DNA of 64,000 bases, from assembly GCF_004348825.1 (NCBI RefSeq), contig NZ_SMJU01000006.1, positions 186,001-250,000 of the forward strand, written 5' to 3'. The notes under the pieces were generated by a model that was given only the letters and a program-made list of their open reading frames with translations, did not search any database and was not told the DNA's origin. The translations under genes were made by a program, and so were the position numbers. The DNA comes from Arundinibacter roseus. GTDB taxonomy: Bacteria > Bacteroidota > Bacteroidia > Cytophagales > Spirosomataceae. Below are positions 50,586 to 61,966 of the stretch, piece by piece (position 1 is the stretch's first letter; each line of letters begins with the position of its first letter).

Positions 50586-52109
50586 TTATCGCCCGCTATG
50601 TTTTGCGATTTTTTGAAACAACTCCTTTGGGTTAAATGGCTTGGTAACGTAATCGCTCATGCCAATTTGAAACGCCAAATCCTGATTACTTAGCGTAGCA
50701 GAAGCGGTAAGTGCGATGATTGGAATTTTTATGTCCAGCTCCCTGATTTTTTCCGTAGCCGTGTAGCCATCCATCACCGGCATCTGAATATCCATCAGGA
50801 TAAGATCATACTTTTGCGGCTCGTACATTTCGAGGGCGATTTTTCCATTTTCGGCCAAATCTACCTCAATATTCCAGCGTTCCAGAAACTTGCGCGCAAC
50901 TTTTACATTCATAGGATAATCTTCCACCAGCAAAATACGCAGTCCTTTCAAGGTAAATTCATTGAGGTGATAAGTGCTCGACTCGTCCACTCGCACACGC
51001 TGATCGGCGCCCAAATCCAGTTCCAGCGTAAAGTAAAAACGTGAACCTTTGCCAACCTCACTTTCAATCTGAATTTCGCTCCCGTACAGTTCCAGTAGTT
51101 TTTTGGTAATTACAAGCCCTAAACCAGTTCCGCCAAACTCCCGGGTAGTTTGAGAATTTGCCTGCGTAAAGCGGTCGAATATAAGTTGTTGTTTGTTTTT
51201 TGGAATGCCAATTCCGGTATCTGTAACCGAAAAATCGAGGGTTACTTTTGTTTCAGTTTTACTTTGCAGAGAAAGCTCGATCGTGATACTGCCATTTCTT
51301 GTGAATTTCACCGCATTGGAAACCAGATTGGATATGATTTGTCCTAACCTCAGAATATCTCCCATCAATACCTGCGGCACATCATCATCAATCATCAATT
51401 TAATCTTATTCCCTTTTTCTTCGGCTTTGACCTGATTTGCCTTTTTGATGTTTGAAACCAGCTGTTTTACATCAAATGGTACTTTTTCAAGATCTACTTT
51501 CCCAGCTTCTATTTTACTAAAATCCAGAATATCATTGATCAGAACGTGAAGGTTATCGGTTGAGAATTGAAGAATACGAAGGTTTTCGGCCATATTGTGC
51601 GACACCTCCTCCTGTTGCATCAGGTACGTAAGCCCCACAATGGCATTGAGCGGCGTACGAATTTCGTGGCTCATCATGGACAAAAACTCGGACTTTGCGT
51701 GCGTTGCCAATTCGGCTATTTCCTTAGATTTTCGTAGCTCAGCCTCTACTTTTTTACGATGCTCAATTTGTACCTGAAGCACATCGACAAGAGCAAGTAA
51801 ATTATTGGAATCGAGTGATTTGTTTATGAATTCATCCTGCATTTCCAGCGAGCGAATGGCCTCCATTAGTTTTTCAACCGATAGCCTTCGCTCATTTATT
51901 TCCTTGGTAAGTTTTGCATTGATTGAGGCGTACTCCTTTTCGTTCAATTGCGAAGAATGCTCAAATAATTCTTTATCACGTTCAAAGTTTCGATACGACT
52001 CGTTGACCACCCGAATAAAATTCTGAAAATGTTCGTTTTCTGCAATACTTTCGGGGAGATATTTACTTAGCTGTTTTCGTAACAGGGGATGAAAATTCGG
52101 TTGGTCCAT
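50586..52109 (-). CDS. Soluble hybrid histidine kinase with C-terminal receiver
   Basis: The 507-residue protein has no membrane segment. It has a coiled-coil N-terminus (about 1-135, no PAS or GAF), HisKA with His148 (MSHEIRTPLNA), a full ATPase domain (N-box in ISNLVSNAVKFT, G1 DTGIG, G2 GTGLGL) and a receiver at about 389-507 with phospho-Asp about 440 (LMDIQMPVMDG). The start lies 4 bases after the end of the FIST protein gene, so the FIST protein is very likely the input for this kinase. Phosphate may be passed to an HPt protein encoded elsewhere. Confidence 0.9.
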   Translation of the reverse strand: MDQPNFHPLLRKQLSKYLPESIAENEHFQNFIRVVNESYRNFERDKELFEHSSQLNEKEYASINAKLTKEINERRLSVEKLMEAIRSLEMQDEFINKSLDSNNLLALVDVLQVQIEHRKKVEAELRKSKEIAELATHAKSEFLSMMSHEIRTPLNAIVGLTYLMQQEEVSHNMAENLRILQFSTDNLHVLINDILDFSKIEAGKVDLEKVPFDVKQLVSNIKKANQVKAEEKGNKIKLMIDDDVPQVLMGDILRLGQIISNLVSNAVKFTRNGSITIELSLQSKTETKVTLDFSVTDTGIGIPKNKQQLIFDRFTQANSQTTREFGGTGLGLVITKKLLELYGSEIQIESEVGKGSRFYFTLELDLGADQRVRVDESSTYHLNEFTLKGLRILLVEDYPMNVKVARKFLERWNIEVDLAENGKIALEMYEPQKYDLILMDIQMPVMDGYTATEKIRELDIKIPIIALTASATLSNQDLAFQIGMSDYVTKPFNPKELFQKIAKHSGR

Positions 52110-52113
52110 TGGA

Positions 52114-53253
52114 TCAATATTCTGAAAAAGTTGTGATAGTCATGGTTTGATTATGCAGCTCGCAAGATACAGAAGGATTCAATCGGGAAATCTCACCGTA
52201 TGAATAAAAACCAGTAATTACGGTTTCCGGACCCACCATTTCTCTCACCGCTTCTACTTCCTCTTCGGTTCGCTGTCCCAATACAAGCTTCCGACCCACG
52301 CAACTGATCAGCAACGTTAATTGGGGAGGATTTTCAAAGTTACGAATCGAACTCGACGCCGCCGAAGAGGAAGCCTCAATGAGACGGTCAAAATTTGCCT
52401 TCATAAATCGTACCAATGCACCTTTGGGAACATCACCCGCAAACGTCATACTTTTTTTCTCTTCATCAATTGTCAAAATTGTTCGAACCACGGGTTCAGC
52501 ATCTAAGCTCGTTCGCATCGAAAGCGGGAACAACAATGCTCCGGCCGGGAGCTCAGCAGCGAACCGACCGAGGTATTCTTTATATAAATCCAAAGCAGCT
52601 ATATCACCAATAGAAAATAACGTATTGTACTCAGAATGAGTAACTTCCCGCTCGGGACCAAAAACATCCCAACCGCCATTTGTTCCATGACCCACAGTCA
52701 GACTATAGCCATAGAGCCCAATGCCAACCACATTGCCTGGTTCAGCTTCCTGATTCAGCCCAACGAGTGTTTTCTCGAACCGGGCTTCATCACCGGCCAA
52801 ACCTCCGGAAATTGAGGTATTTTCCTTTACCTGAGCATTTAACGAAACCAGTAAGGCACTACCATTGACGCGGCTCCCGTCGGAAATTAACAAAATAGCC
52901 GCCAAATCATCGGCGGCCAATTCCTTCCCTATTTTTTCTCCTACGCTTCCGCTTTCGTAATGATCCTGAATTTGATATTGAACCGCCTTCACCTGCGTTT
53001 TCTGGAACTGAATGGCCGTGACAATAATCGTATAGTCATTAACGGTATCGTTGTAAATCTCTCCTGCTGTGGAGTTTATAACAATTTCAGCCTGCGGATA
53101 TTTCTCACGAAGGAAGGCATAAGGCAGGCATTCTTCCAGGCAGTGCCGTTCTCCAAAGGCAAGCACAAGCTGGGCAGAATCGGCAGAAAAATCGGTAGGC
53201 GTAGATAAAACTTCCCATTCCTGATTGCGGTAAACAACCTGTTGAGTTCTCAT
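52114..53253 (-). CDS. FIST domain sensor protein
   Basis: The 379-residue protein has a FIST_N domain (about 25-215; ADDLAAILLISDGSRVNG, SISGGLAGD) and a FIST_C domain (about 225-360; IGDIAALDLYKEYLG, ending ETVITGFYSYGEI). FIST proteins are thought to bind small ligands such as amino acids and to feed two-component pathways. It is encoded 4 bases before a soluble hybrid kinase that lacks its own sensor domain. It has no transmembrane segment, so it senses the cytosol. Confidence 0.88.
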   Translation of the reverse strand: MRTQQVVYRNQEWEVLSTPTDFSADSAQLVLAFGERHCLEECLPYAFLREKYPQAEIVINSTAGEIYNDTVNDYTIIVTAIQFQKTQVKAVQYQIQDHYESGSVGEKIGKELAADDLAAILLISDGSRVNGSALLVSLNAQVKENTSISGGLAGDEARFEKTLVGLNQEAEPGNVVGIGLYGYSLTVGHGTNGGWDVFGPEREVTHSEYNTLFSIGDIAALDLYKEYLGRFAAELPAGALLFPLSMRTSLDAEPVVRTILTIDEEKKSMTFAGDVPKGALVRFMKANFDRLIEASSSAASSSIRNFENPPQLTLLISCVGRKLVLGQRTEEEVEAVREMVGPETVITGFYSYGEISRLNPSVSCELHNQTMTITTFSEY

Positions 53254-55824: not shown

Positions 55825-56202
55825 TTATTCTGTCAAATTTGCCACCACTTCCACAAGGCGGTCAAAATTTAGGGGTTTCATGAGCGCATCGTTGAAGCCT
55901 GCTTCTTTGAAGTCACCATCTGTATAATTTTTGGCATTTCCAGTTATAGCCACAATCGGTGTTTTCGACTTTTTATCATCGCTCATGCTTCGGATTTTGC
56001 GGGCACATTCCATGCCATCCATGATAGGCATATTGATATCGAGCAAAATAATATCAAAGTCTTCTTTTTCAAGAAGCTGCAACACTTGCTCGCCATTTTT
56101 GACGGCCGTGATCTCGTAATTTTGAAATTCAAGAATTTTCCGAGCTAAATTTTGAATCACCGAGCTATCTTCGGCAATCAATACGCGTTTGGTGTACGAC
56201 AT
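55825..56202 (-). CDS. Single-domain response regulator (CheY-like)
   Basis: The 125-residue receiver has E11-D12, phospho-acceptor D55 (IILLDINMPIMDG), T87 and K109 (LMKPLNF), and no output domain. It is 5 bases upstream of the PhnP-like gene and reads in the same direction. The kinase genes on either side (50.6 kb and 57.5-61 kb) are candidate partners. Confidence 0.9.
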   Translation of the reverse strand: MSYTKRVLIAEDSSVIQNLARKILEFQNYEITAVKNGEQVLQLLEKEDFDIILLDINMPIMDGMECARKIRSMSDDKKSKTPIVAITGNAKNYTDGDFKEAGFNDALMKPLNFDRLVEVVANLTE

Positions 56203-57458: not shown

Positions 57459-60400
57459 TTATAGCCAATCATCCAGCCAACTTTTGTAATTTTCCAGGAA
57501 TCGCCCGTATGCCTTTTGGAGTTGAGGCAAGGCCGTGGAAAGCGTTGAAGTGTCGTCATGTTTCAGACGGCCTTCGGCATCTTTGGCAATCTCGGCAACC
57601 TGCATTACACCAACGGTTCCTGCACTTCCTTTCAGCGTATGCAGGTGACTCTTAACCGTAGCCATATCACCCGTCTCAAAAGCGGTGATCGCCTCACCTA
57701 CCAATTCGTTGGACTCTGTCACAAAATCTTCATACACCGACAACACAAGATCTTTCCCGCCGATTTGTTTCAGTTGATCCACAATCTCCCGATCCAGTAC
57801 GGGCAGGGCCATTTCACGGGCAATAGCCAGCTGTTTTTCGCTCATTTTGCGTGTAGAAGCAGACCCAATCATTGCCTGAACTTTGGCGATCAGGTGCTGT
57901 GCCCGAATCGGTTTTGCCACGTAATCGTCCATGCCCTGATTCAAAAAACGCTCCCGATCTTCTTTCATGGAGTAGGCCGTCATTGCCACAATAGGTGGCA
58001 AGCCGGTTGCGTATTTTTCATGAAGCTTTTTGGTCGTTTCCACCCCGTCCATGTCGGGCATCTGAATATCCATGAAAATGATGTCATACATTCCTTTCTC
58101 TGCCGTGACTACATCCTCTACCTTTTGCAAAGCTTCAAAACCACTTTCTGCTGTTTCGACTACACAGCCGGCTTTTTTCAGGATTTCACTTGCCACTTTC
58201 CGGTTCACCATATTATCATCAACCAGTAAAATGAAGGGATGATAGGTCTCAAAAATATTATCAATATAGGCTTCTTCCTCATTTTCGACTACTGATGCCG
58301 GGGCAATTGAGGTCTCTTTGGTTTCAAACGTAAACCAGAACATGCTGCCTTCGCCCATAGACGAAACTACGCCAATATCGCCGTTCATCAGGTGGCACAA
58401 CTGCCGAGAAATGGAAAGCCCAAGCCCCGTGCCACCATATGATTTGCGGGAAGAATTGTCGACTTGTGTAAAAGAAGTAAACAGAATTTTTTGATCTTCT
58501 TCCGAAATCCCTATTCCCGAGTCATACACTTCTACTTTGATCCGATTTTTCTTACCCTGCTTTTCCAGCAAATGCACTTTGATTTTCACGGCGCCATTAT
58601 CCGTAAATTTCAGAGCATTGGATGTCAGATTTGACAAAATTTGCAGGAGGCGGGTTTGGTCGGCAATGATGTACCTCGGCACCTCAGGTGCAAGCTGATA
58701 CGTGAGAGTAGTGTTCTTATTACGAGCCGTTTGGCTAAACAACGAAACCAGTTTTTCCAACAATTCCTGAATGGAAAGCGGCATTTCGTGCAGTGCCATT
58801 TTACCTGCTTCTATTTTGGACAAATCCAGAATATCATTTAAAATATGCAGCAGTGTTTCGGACGACCGTTTGATCGTTTGAATGTAATCGCGCTGTTCGT
58901 CGTTGAGTTTTGTATTAATCAAAAGGTCAATCATCCCAATCACGCCATTCATTGGCGTTCGGATTTCATGGCTCATATTAGCCAAAAATCCTTCCTTCAC
59001 TTTCAACGAGTGCTCGGCCTGCTCCTTGGCTTTCAGCAATTCCAGTTCATTCCGTTTCAGCGCCGTAATGTCACGCGCCAGCACGGCTACTTCCGACGGT
59101 CTGCCTTTGTCGTTGGTGAACATCAGCATATTGAACATAAACTGCCGTTCACTGCCGTCTTTCACCCGCAGCGTTGCTTCTACGTTGCGCAGGCTTTTGT
59201 CGCGACGGAGTTTAATGAGCGATTTATGAATCAGTTTACGGTCAAAGAAAAAATCCGTAATAGGTCTGCCCATCACTTCCTGAGGCGTGTACCCTGTTCG
59301 TTTGAGCACCGACGGGCTGATCATCGTAATAATTCCCTGCCGATCCATGCGGCAATAAATGTCCTGCAAGTTTTCAAAAATCCCGCGGAACACTTCCTCA
59401 CTTTGTCGCAGCGATATTTCGGCCTGCTTGCGACGGGTAATGTCCCGCGCAATACCCGAAACCTCCTCAATCAGTCCACCGGTATACAGAATCGGATTAA
59501 GGTAAAATTCAAGCCACATTTCTGAGCCATCACGGGTATCAATCTTCATCTCAAAGTACTGCAACTCACCCCGAAACGCCTGTCGATACCGGTTTTCAAG
59601 CGAGCGTCGATTTTGTGAACCCACCATTCGCCAGCCAAGTTTTTCGGTACTAACGTTCAAAGACGGCGCGGTATGTAATTGACTTTCAATTAAATCCGAA
59701 TAATTTCTATTGAAAGATGTCAACTGCATACTCTTATTCACAGACCAAATCAGGTGCGAGCTACTGTCAAAAATCGCATTGAGGCGGGCGGCATATTTGT
59801 TAAGTTCTTCTTCGTTTTGCTTTCGGGCAATTGCCAGGGCTACCTGCCCGGAAATAAATTCGAGCAGTTCAAGGTCGCGGGCATCGTAGGTATTTGGGTT
59901 GTCATAGGACTTCACACCGATAATCCCTGTCACGCGGTCGCCGATGCGAAGCGGCACACACAGCAACACTTCCGGCGTAGAACCGTAAAGGTACAAACTG
60001 TTGGTAGTAGCAAGTTTCTGAATATCTTCTTTGTATAAAAACAGCGGACGATTCGAAGCAATTGCGTATTCAGTAAGCCCGTTTCCCAGGCGCCTTTTGG
60101 TAAATTTCAGATTACCTTTAAAATATTGATCAATATAGTATGGGAAATAAAGAAAGCTCTTGGATTGATCGTAGAGGGCAATAAAGAAGTTTTTTACATC
60201 AATAATTTTTCCCAATTCCAAATGAATATTGTGGTAAAATTCGTCCAGATTTTGGGTGCTTATGGTCCAGTTTGCAATGCTGTAATAGAGATTCTGTGCG
60301 CGTTCGGCTCTGATTTTTTCCGTAAAATCGTGTAAAATACATCGAAAAGCCGTTGGTGTTCCATTGTCAAACCGGCAATTGACGCTACCCGTCAGGAATA

Positions 60401-61070
60401 TTTTGCGACCACTTTTACTCAAAAAAACCGTTTCAAAGTAAGGAATCTCCTCCCCTTTCTGAATGCGATTTAGTTGGCTCAACGTTTCGTCTTTAAACTT
60501 TGGATACAAAATATCTGCCAGAGTCATGGAGGCAATTTCGTCCAGCCCGTAGCCCAAAACCTCACGCCAGGCACGGTTTACGAAGATAAATTTACCGTCA
60601 AGCGTAATGAGTTGAATGAGGTCACTTGTGTTGTCGACCAGATCCTGTAACTGCGTATTGGACCGCGACAGTGCTGATTCCATCCGGAGACGGCGCGTGA
60701 TGTCGTCACCCACAAGGGTGAATGATGCAGGTCTGCCGTTTTCATTTTTAAGCAAAACGGAATTAATGGCCACCGTCCGCATTCCTGCATTTTTAGATAA
60801 AATTGGAAACTCTCGCCGCTCAATTTTCACTCCACGGTAGAGAGCATCTTCCAGCAAATCCTGCACTTCTTCCCGTTCAAATTCAGGAATTAATACACTA
60901 AGCAGATTTTCACCGATGAGATCAATTTCCTGCCAGCCGGTTTTTTTCAGGGTATAAGGGCTAACAGAAAGTATTTTCAGATCAATATCAAGCGTGATAC
61001 CGATCAGATTCAGGTGGTCAAGTGTCATGTTGACAGACTGCCATTCTTCAAAAGAACGTATGGTTTCCAT
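57459..61070 (-). CDS. Large soluble hybrid histidine kinase (PAS-PAS-GAF-PAS-PAS-HK-REC-HPt)
   Basis: I use the ATG at 61070 (1203 residues); the longer frame would overlap rsmA. Domains in order: PAS about 20-130 and 140-260, GAF about 275-425 (LLEFISGQVALAIA), PAS about 430-555 and 565-685, HisKA about 700-765 with His in MSHEIRTPMNG, ATPase about 810-925 (DSGIGI, GTGLGLS), receiver about 955-1075 (FMDIQMPDMDG), HPt about 1095-1200 with His in HTLKGSAGTVGV. It has no membrane segment. It contains a whole phosphorelay and needs only an outside receiver. It is divergent from rsmA. Confidence 0.92.
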   Translation of the reverse strand: METIRSFEEWQSVNMTLDHLNLIGITLDIDLKILSVSPYTLKKTGWQEIDLIGENLLSVLIPEFEREEVQDLLEDALYRGVKIERREFPILSKNAGMRTVAINSVLLKNENGRPASFTLVGDDITRRLRMESALSRSNTQLQDLVDNTSDLIQLITLDGKFIFVNRAWREVLGYGLDEIASMTLADILYPKFKDETLSQLNRIQKGEEIPYFETVFLSKSGRKIFLTGSVNCRFDNGTPTAFRCILHDFTEKIRAERAQNLYYSIANWTISTQNLDEFYHNIHLELGKIIDVKNFFIALYDQSKSFLYFPYYIDQYFKGNLKFTKRRLGNGLTEYAIASNRPLFLYKEDIQKLATTNSLYLYGSTPEVLLCVPLRIGDRVTGIIGVKSYDNPNTYDARDLELLEFISGQVALAIARKQNEEELNKYAARLNAIFDSSSHLIWSVNKSMQLTSFNRNYSDLIESQLHTAPSLNVSTEKLGWRMVGSQNRRSLENRYRQAFRGELQYFEMKIDTRDGSEMWLEFYLNPILYTGGLIEEVSGIARDITRRKQAEISLRQSEEVFRGIFENLQDIYCRMDRQGIITMISPSVLKRTGYTPQEVMGRPITDFFFDRKLIHKSLIKLRRDKSLRNVEATLRVKDGSERQFMFNMLMFTNDKGRPSEVAVLARDITALKRNELELLKAKEQAEHSLKVKEGFLANMSHEIRTPMNGVIGMIDLLINTKLNDEQRDYIQTIKRSSETLLHILNDILDLSKIEAGKMALHEMPLSIQELLEKLVSLFSQTARNKNTTLTYQLAPEVPRYIIADQTRLLQILSNLTSNALKFTDNGAVKIKVHLLEKQGKKNRIKVEVYDSGIGISEEDQKILFTSFTQVDNSSRKSYGGTGLGLSISRQLCHLMNGDIGVVSSMGEGSMFWFTFETKETSIAPASVVENEEEAYIDNIFETYHPFILLVDDNMVNRKVASEILKKAGCVVETAESGFEALQKVEDVVTAEKGMYDIIFMDIQMPDMDGVETTKKLHEKYATGLPPIVAMTAYSMKEDRERFLNQGMDDYVAKPIRAQHLIAKVQAMIGSASTRKMSEKQLAIAREMALPVLDREIVDQLKQIGGKDLVLSVYEDFVTESNELVGEAITAFETGDMATVKSHLHTLKGSAGTVGVMQVAEIAKDAEGRLKHDDTSTLSTALPQLQKAYGRFLENYKSWLDDWL

Positions 61071-61186
61071 GGGGTGTTTAGGAATACTGGTGAACGGGAG
61101 GAAATGCAAAAATCTTAACTGAACTAAATCTACTAATTTAGCCGTAATTTTAGGGTTAATTCGATCAAATTCAAATTTAGAGCCTT

Positions 61187-61966
61187 TTGAAAGTACGCGC
61201 AAAAAAACATCTTGGCCAGCATTTCCTCCGGGATCAGGCTATCGCTCAACGCATTGTGCAGAGTATGAGCCTTCATCAACAGTACACAAAAGTGCTGGAA
61301 ATTGGCCCTGGCATGGGTGTACTTACGCAATATTTACTACCTAATCCGTCCTTTGAAACCTATGTTATCGAAATTGACCGTGAATCGGTAGTTTATTTAA
61401 AAGAACATTTTCCTGAGCTTACTCCCAGAATTGTGGAAGGTGATTTTTTAAACTGGAAACTGTCCGAACTTACAACCGAACCCGTCGGAATTATTGGCAA
61501 TTTTCCCTATAATATTTCATCCCAAATCTTTTTCAGCGTTTTAAAACAACGCAATCAGGTGCCGGAAGTAGTATGTATGTTACAAAAAGAAGTAGCAAGA
61601 CGGATTGCCTCGCCACCGGGCAATAAAGAATATGGAATTCTGAGCGTACTGTTACAGGCATTCTATGATATAGACTATCTGTTTAGTGTTCCTCCGGGCG
61701 CTTTTGACCCGCCACCGAAGGTACAATCGGGCATCATCCGGCTCCGGCGAAATACTACCGAAGAACTTGCCTGCGACGAAGCACTTTTTTTCCGAGTGGT
61801 TAAAACCGGGTTCAATCAACGTCGCAAAACCCTGCGCAATGCGCTGAAACCTTTGGGTGTGACCTTTGAGTCGGAATATCTTGACAAACGGGCCGAGCAA
61901 CTGAGCGTATCTGATTTTGTGACCCTTACCCAAAGTATTGAAGCCGCTTCGGCAGATCTTTCCTAA
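61187..61966 (+). CDS. rsmA: 16S rRNA dimethyladenosine transferase RsmA (KsgA), TTG start
   Basis: The 259-residue protein starts at TTG 61187. An in-frame TAG stop three codons upstream (61178-61180) and the conserved start KKHLGQHFLRD leave no other choice. It has the SAM motif LEIGPGMGVLT at about 37-47 and the catalytic NFPY at 105-108. It dimethylates A1518 and A1519 of 16S rRNA late in 30S assembly. It is followed after 31 bases by mgtE on the same strand. Confidence 0.96.
   Translation: MKVRAKKHLGQHFLRDQAIAQRIVQSMSLHQQYTKVLEIGPGMGVLTQYLLPNPSFETYVIEIDRESVVYLKEHFPELTPRIVEGDFLNWKLSELTTEPVGIIGNFPYNISSQIFFSVLKQRNQVPEVVCMLQKEVARRIASPPGNKEYGILSVLLQAFYDIDYLFSVPPGAFDPPPKVQSGIIRLRRNTTEELACDEALFFRVVKTGFNQRRKTLRNALKPLGVTFESEYLDKRAEQLSVSDFVTLTQSIEAASADLS

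Follow-up and report, generated by a model that had tools for sequence, protein, structure and literature searches.

In a 64,000-nucleotide stretch of the Arundinibacter roseus genome (hereafter the window), a gene coding for a FIST protein directly precedes one coding for a soluble hybrid histidine kinase. The pair is real and widely conserved, and a functional link between its two members is very likely. The kinase begins with a helical module, denoted KN, which sequence comparisons indicate is probably the part onto which the FIST protein docks and that receives its signal. The pair is a variant of the NosP/NahK kind of two-protein sensor.

Both genes are on the minus strand. The FIST protein (379 residues, positions 52114 to 53253) was characterized by Pfam, an AlphaFold2 model, and fold and residue comparisons. 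It consists of N- and C-terminal FIST domains, at residues 28 to 216 (Pfam FIST, E = 5.1e-36, 124.8 bits for a cut-off of 23.2) and 220 to 357 (FIST_C, E = 1.1e-35, 123 bits for a cut-off of 28.5). According to the open reading frame coordinates and the junction sequence, four bases (52110 to 52113, minus strand) separate its stop from the kinase start, as a previous sequence-only reading had it, and the two genes probably form one transcription unit. The kinase (507 residues, 50586 to 52109) is composed of KN followed by HisKA (138-203), HATPase_c (250-365) and Response_reg (392-501), with no other Pfam domain. The HisKA His, HATPase_c and the receiver Asp are all present, as befits a hybrid histidine kinase, and the phosphoacceptor H148 and the receiver residue D440 are invariant in an alignment of 18 kinases. 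No PAS, GAF or CHASE domain was detected in the kinase by Pfam at E ≤ 0.01, and a membrane segment is unlikely in either protein (maximal 19-residue Kyte-Doolittle means of 1.06 for the kinase and 1.23 for the FIST protein), in agreement with the earlier description of a kinase devoid of such domains. No output gene adjoins the pair at the window locus, and the upstream neighbors in three loci (YchF, Dabb, MerC) have no shared theme. A few kb from the pair, the window also codes for a PAS/GAF hybrid kinase with an Hpt domain (1247 residues, 57459 to 61202) and a stand-alone receiver (125 residues, 55825 to 56202); we found no evidence tying either to the pair.

KN corresponds to kinase residues 6 to 128 approximately (51726 to 52094, minus strand), as supported by the HMM envelope, alignment, adjacency counts and model helices. 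In the AlphaFold2 model of the kinase (18 sequences, mean pLDDT of 79.4, pTM of 0.55), residues 8 to 135 are predicted to be mostly helical, with helices at 26 to 87 and 104 to 165, the second of which continues into the DHp helix with moderate confidence. No family for KN was found in Pfam or NCBIfam: scans of 47 members yielded scattered weak matches, such as Ferritin (E = 0.0025, below the cut-off) and NahK (E = 0.0046) for the window KN, and in single members the match was to the beginning of the following domain. The NahK model was matched by 4 of the 47 members at E ≤ 0.01, with a best value of 1.8e-5. Searches of the PDB with KN returned only weak coiled-coil matches (best E = 0.0049). 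On these grounds the assignment of KN to a known family was rejected.

We analyzed the conservation of the pair at increasing distances, starting from KN as well as from FIST in 59 relatives, 150 genomes of the family and a phylum-wide sample of 296 genomes. Single-sequence searches of the relatives detected the FIST protein in 23 genomes, including 18 strong matches (E of 3.8e-97 or better; closest relative at 71% identity), and kinase residues 1 to 130 in 19 genomes (20 matches). By coordinates, the kinase N-terminus adjoins FIST in 18 of 18 strong-FIST genomes, and two N-terminus matches have no FIST neighbor (the second copy in G026, and G052). In the family, a profile search gave a FIST match in 79 genomes, of which we retained the 70 with E < 1e-100 for the counts, the other nine having weaker FIST matches or fragments. 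These 70 genomes represent 21 of the 36 genera sampled, and KN is directly downstream of FIST in all of them. Conversely, 78 KN matches were found in 72 of the 150 genomes, 70 of them adjoining FIST and eight without a FIST neighbor. In the phylum-wide sample, FIST_N was matched in 70 genomes and KN in 39, and 34 of 41 KN matches directly follow a FIST gene; four of the other seven are weak, with E of 1e-4 or worse. The conservation across Bacteroidota that the sequence-only reading had suggested checking is thus borne out, and kinases carrying KN are not commonly found without FIST neighbors.

In Bacteroidota, KN is missing beside many FIST genes that belong to other subtypes. In 61 loci including that of the window, KN is next to 43 of 65 FIST genes, and 20 of the 22 KN-less genes are distant from the window FIST group. 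One other FIST subtype occurs as two to four successive genes in L100, L101, L110, L130 and G305 (C4:176970-181526); in the first four of these loci, the next gene codes for a kinase without detected KN. Over all collected loci, a KN gene is next to 111 of 146 distinct FIST genes by ORF picking, a procedure that misplaced genes in the high-GC loci L137, L138, L191 and L216. The intergenic gap has a median of 2 bp, and 107 of the 111 pairs are at most 30 bp apart (110 of 114 before the duplicates L142, L165 and L183 were removed from the counts of gaps, adjacency and distances).

Scanning 84,980 species, each represented by a single genome, revealed at least 589 related stretches, and the best 80 loci were analyzed. 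A KN gene is next to 71 of the 82 FIST genes that they contain, and a six-frame search added two cases with KN just after FIST, in a MAG labelled Gemmatimonadota (L191) and in Propionivibrio (L216). The remaining nine FIST genes are at a contig end (L152), first in a tandem FIST pair (L186, L218), followed by genes for H-NOX and a kinase without detected KN (L188, L193), upstream of a hybrid kinase whose N-terminus is shortened (L206), 137 bp from a kinase (L219), or without any KN partner seen (L177, L215). Among the matches listed, from which genomes very close to that of the window may be missing, the closest named FIST proteins are those of Emticicia agri (67% identity) and Emticicia sp. 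BO119 (66%), both of the Bacteroidota, Cytophagales, followed by those of Arsenicibacter and Spirosoma (58%). KN was also found in MAGs assigned to the Acidobacteriota (L178), the Ignavibacteria (L190) and the Balneolaceae (L183), assignments that may be wrong. On two Azospirillum plasmids, a FIST gene (39% identity of the product) is separated by 4 bp from a downstream gene for a hybrid kinase with PAS, its domain composition having been verified in one of the two; the kinase N-termini match KN (E = 1.9e-11 and 2.3e-11). A Legionella longbeachae plasmid carries a FIST gene (41% identity of the product) with no kinase adjoining.

The 71 KN proteins from these best 80 of at least 589 loci comprise HATPase_c (65), HisKA (65), receiver (53), PAS (25), Hpt (12), SpoIIE (5) and HisKA_3 (1) domains; outside this set, the L132 protein has HisKA_2 and that of L128 only PAS and GAF. 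The same module thus precedes outputs that vary. In five loci (L162:9137-10138, L163, L169, L184, L201), KN is fused to a SpoIIE (PP2C-type) phosphatase directly after FIST, with no other Pfam match at E ≤ 0.001. SpoIIE is a non-kinase output for the FIST-KN cassette, and KN stays with FIST while the output shifts from kinase to phosphatase. As the loci with SpoIIE and the other output types were fetched via FIST, the counts are uninformative on the frequency of such KN proteins without FIST. That KN heads PAS-containing, HisKA_2 and HisKA_3 kinases as well as SpoIIE phosphatases behind FIST indicates that it probably receives the FIST signal. The retention of KN with such varied outputs also argues against the idea that the two genes are functionally unlinked and were inherited together by chance, an idea that would be compatible with their adjacency, since gene order may persist passively. 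Given in addition the invariable co-occurrence in 21 genera, the very short gaps and the presence of the pair on Azospirillum plasmids, we consider this idea extremely improbable, and chance adjacency of FIST and KN genes was rejected.

Covariation pointed in the same direction as the variety of outputs. Pairwise distances of KN and FIST are correlated (r = 0.77) in 93 distinct pairs, those of the 111 that have a suitable kinase core. The correlation between KN and FIST given the kinase core is 0.57, as against 0.17 between the kinase core and FIST given KN; with the three duplicates included the values were 0.78, 0.585 and 0.18, and the highest of 1,000 permutations reached 0.147. Shared ancestry inflates these values; their contrast nevertheless points to KN, rather than the kinase core, as what is linked to FIST. 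Together with the co-occurrence, this supports the two-protein sensor proposed by the sequence-only reading, in which the helical N-terminus of the kinase would receive the signal of the FIST protein. We regard it as highly likely that FIST signals through KN.

We compared the pair with known systems, as described in the parts of the cited papers that were available. NosP proteins belong to the FIST proteins, and their genes frequently accompany those of kinases (PMC12570481, PMC8846402, PMC11784011, PMC11237717), and the published NosP-type analogues bind heme/NO and control the adjoining kinases (PMC12570481, PMC8846402, PMC11784011). In NosP-NosK-NosR of Burkholderia pseudomallei, as in the window, a FIST protein is found beside a soluble, sensor-less kinase. 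NosP serves there as an auxiliary sensor; NosK has no recognized sensor domain and approximately 130 residues ahead of DHp, it is bound by NosP in two-hybrid assays, and its autophosphorylation is inhibited by NosP, an effect that an NO donor strengthens (PMC12570481). The likeness is one of description: NosK is made of DHp and CA only, with its regulator NosR in the operon, whereas the window kinase has a fused receiver. The NosP-NahK systems of Pseudomonas and Legionella similarly have a FIST protein followed by a kinase under NosP control (PMC11784011, PMC11237717, PMC12997753), and NahK of Pseudomonas is a hybrid kinase like that of the window. As the architecture and mechanism of NosP-NosK are published (PMC12570481), those proposed by the sequence-only reading are already described in kind, and that reading went too far in calling the pair a candidate for an undescribed metabolite-sensing system.

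The pair nevertheless differs from these systems. Unlike NosP, the window FIST protein is below the cut-off of the NosP model NF041558 (46.3 bits versus 450, E = 3e-12) and is therefore not a member of that equivalog. No over-cut-off NosP match was found in the window's own genome, and BLASTP against one over-cut-off NosP aligned only a portion of the protein, at 26% identity (E = 0.027). The kinase does not belong to NahK/ErcS' by the corresponding models either (149.7 bits versus 1500 for NF041831, 178.5 versus 400 for NF041832), and eleven other kinase models outrank the better of the two. The N-termini of kinases adjacent to NosP-type proteins appear to differ from KN, to which they may or may not be homologous: hhalign gave a probability of 10% (E = 0.003), and the top HMM match in 30 NosP-type loci had an E value of 1.3e-4. 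The window variant is thus characterized by its FIST subgroup, the KN module, the fused receiver and the lack of an adjoining output gene.

To look for ligand-related residues, we aligned 46 FIST sequences of the window group, 29 of NosP type and 19 others; the NosP-type set was defined by at least 307 bits with the NosP model, 11 of the 29 exceeding the cut-off, and one of the 30 loci was dropped because its FIST was missed. C318 is invariant in all three groups, H367 is conserved at 93% in the window group, 97% in the NosP type and 74% in the others, and conservation of Y224 and Y352 is seen in the window and NosP-type groups. In contrast, a Cys conserved at 97% in NosP-type proteins is N60 in the window FIST protein, and a NosP-type His (79%) is G194, a Gly that is invariant in the window group. 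C318 aligns with C326 of human FBXO22 in a weak match (E = 0.28-0.29; position counted along the alignment). Thus, as C318 and H367 are common to other FIST groups and C318 corresponds to the FBXO22 residue, they are no proof of heme binding. C326 of FBXO22 is engaged by aldehyde degraders through a proposed covalent bond (PMC13316043).

The AlphaFold2 model of the FIST protein (pLDDT of 95.4, pTM of 0.92) has the fold of the human FBXO22 FIST domain (8ua3, 8ua6, 8s7d, 8s7e; Z of 21.6-22.8, rmsd of 3.4-3.5 over 256-267 residues with VIA-align). FBXO22 is an F-box protein for ubiquitination, 12-13% identical and without a kinase. The fold is also common to chorismatases (Z of 14.8, rmsd of 3.7, 227 residues) and cyanuric acid hydrolases, both of which are small-metabolite enzymes. 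By sequence alone, a search of solved structures with the FIST protein gave no match, and in a profile search the best E value was 0.12. The likeness of FIST to chorismatases was already known from FBXO22 (PMC11185555). These features suggest that the FIST protein might sense a cytosolic small molecule other than heme/NO, either an electrophile or carbonyl via C318 or another metabolite: its group is far under the NosP cut-off and without two NosP-typical residues, the Cys that aligns with a proposed aldehyde-binding residue is invariant (PMC13316043), and the fold is that of metabolite enzymes. However, the bacterial FIST proteins characterized in the available parts of the literature, NosP of several species and Vibrio cholerae CdpA, respond to NO/heme, and FIST genes are repeatedly found beside H-NOX genes. 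We lean against another ligand, which is nonetheless a serious possibility.

H-NOX proteins are an established family of heme NO sensors. The genes of 178 to 180 codons beside two FIST-KN pairs code for H-NOX proteins (HNOB, E = 2.2e-39 and 5.2e-49), from which we built an H-NOX model. Of 144 loci, 13 have H-NOX at most two genes from FIST, 11 of them arranged as H-NOX, kinase, FIST, KN kinase and two as FIST, H-NOX, kinase. In the 150 family genomes, H-NOX was matched in 43 and the FIST-KN pair in 70, with 28 having both. In 12 of these 28 genomes the two are within 30 kb, at approximately 3.4 kb in five, 5-6 kb tail to tail in four (among them G521, whose H-NOX is broken) and 22-23 kb in three, versus some 0.3 genomes expected by chance (our estimate for 6-Mb genomes). 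At the genome level, H-NOX is present in 28 of 70 genomes with the pair versus 15 of 80 without it (Fisher p = 0.006, kinship ignored), a weak association, and weight was therefore placed on the local linkage. The window genome has an H-NOX gene beside a PAS hybrid kinase gene, on a contig other than that of the pair; we take the IHVEVQKLYP stretch of its product to be the proximal-His region. FIST genes near hnox were already known from a neighborhood analysis (PMC8738867). H-NOX/HnoK likewise associates a stand-alone heme NO sensor with the kinase that it controls, and it is beside the FIST pair in some relatives (PMC8846402, PMC8738867); its sensor is of the HNOB rather than the FIST family.

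Two loci contain remnants of these genes. In L278 (G521 C123:51348-51551), an H-NOX remnant with an in-frame stop, upstream of a hybrid kinase gene, is oriented tail to tail to a FIST-KN pair that is intact. In L274:4814-6832 (G518 C23), broken FIST pieces (ORFs of 86 and 77 codons) lie between two H-NOX genes, and the same genome harbors an intact FIST-KN pair elsewhere (C2).

The proximity of H-NOX raises the alternative that FIST is no sensor itself, but a ligand-free scaffold or kinase regulator that answers another protein such as H-NOX. The FIST domain of FBXO22 is a protein-docking surface with no obvious ligand pocket (PMC11185555), and the gene order FIST, H-NOX, kinase in L188 and L193, with no KN found in the kinase, would fit such a role. 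Nevertheless, H-NOX is missing from 42 of the 70 family genomes that carry the pair, and for Pseudomonas NosP both complexes with NO and the dissociation of NO are tabulated (PMC12889525), making this alternative improbable. A review states only that FIST may bind NO and/or heme (PMC8846402), and heme itself is reported as the signal for B. thailandensis NosP (PMC13259868) and for the FIST portion of CdpA from V. cholerae (PMC8846402). By analogy with NosP and from the H-NOX neighbors, heme/NO is the leading candidate ligand, a proposal whose chances we judge to be even; the low NosP score, the missing NosP-typical residues and the 42 genomes with the pair but devoid of H-NOX weigh against it. 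The amino acids or fatty acids considered in the sequence-only reading gained no support, the H-NOX neighbors lending indirect support to NO/heme. Copper nitrite reductase is over the cut-off in one of 150 family genomes (G022), which lacks the pair, so that by this marker there is no link to denitrification, and such a link was rejected. Matches to that enzyme at E ≤ 0.001 occur in 76 of the 150 genomes; those other than the G022 one are presumably other multicopper proteins.

The pair would constitute a cytosolic two-protein sensor resembling NosP/NahK, its FIST protein taking up a cofactor or ligand, most likely heme reporting NO or heme itself, and docking onto KN. The ligand state would alter the helical geometry from KN to the DHp helix and thereby set the autophosphorylation of H148, after which the phosphate would pass to D440 on the same chain and then to an Hpt protein and a regulator. 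Sequence data establish the pair, its conservation, the specific tie of KN to FIST and the variety of outputs, while docking, the direction of the effect, the heme/NO ligand and the downstream partner are inferred. Taken as a whole, with docking on KN and heme/NO as the ligand, we find this proposal evenly poised between right and wrong. More tentatively, and with more doubt than belief, KN could be an undescribed portable receiver for FIST, the FIST-KN cassette driving hybrid, PAS-, HisKA_2 or HisKA_3 kinases or SpoIIE phosphatases in Bacteroidota and some other phyla; beside H-NOX, both heme sensors would then feed one double NO (or NO/heme) gate. KN represents a defined partner module for FIST proteins, with some 120 residues marking the possible entry of the signal. 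With the pair, the FIST/NO theme reaches environmental Bacteroidota, and no experimental work on it in these bacteria turned up in the available parts of the open-access literature.

In two loci (L106:5100-6455 and L083:7111-8511), a gene for an NtrC-like response regulator, a sigma-54 activator, is directly upstream of FIST. The KN kinases of both loci are long, that of L106 containing PAS domains, and the NtrC-like regulator is possibly the output that is absent at the window locus.
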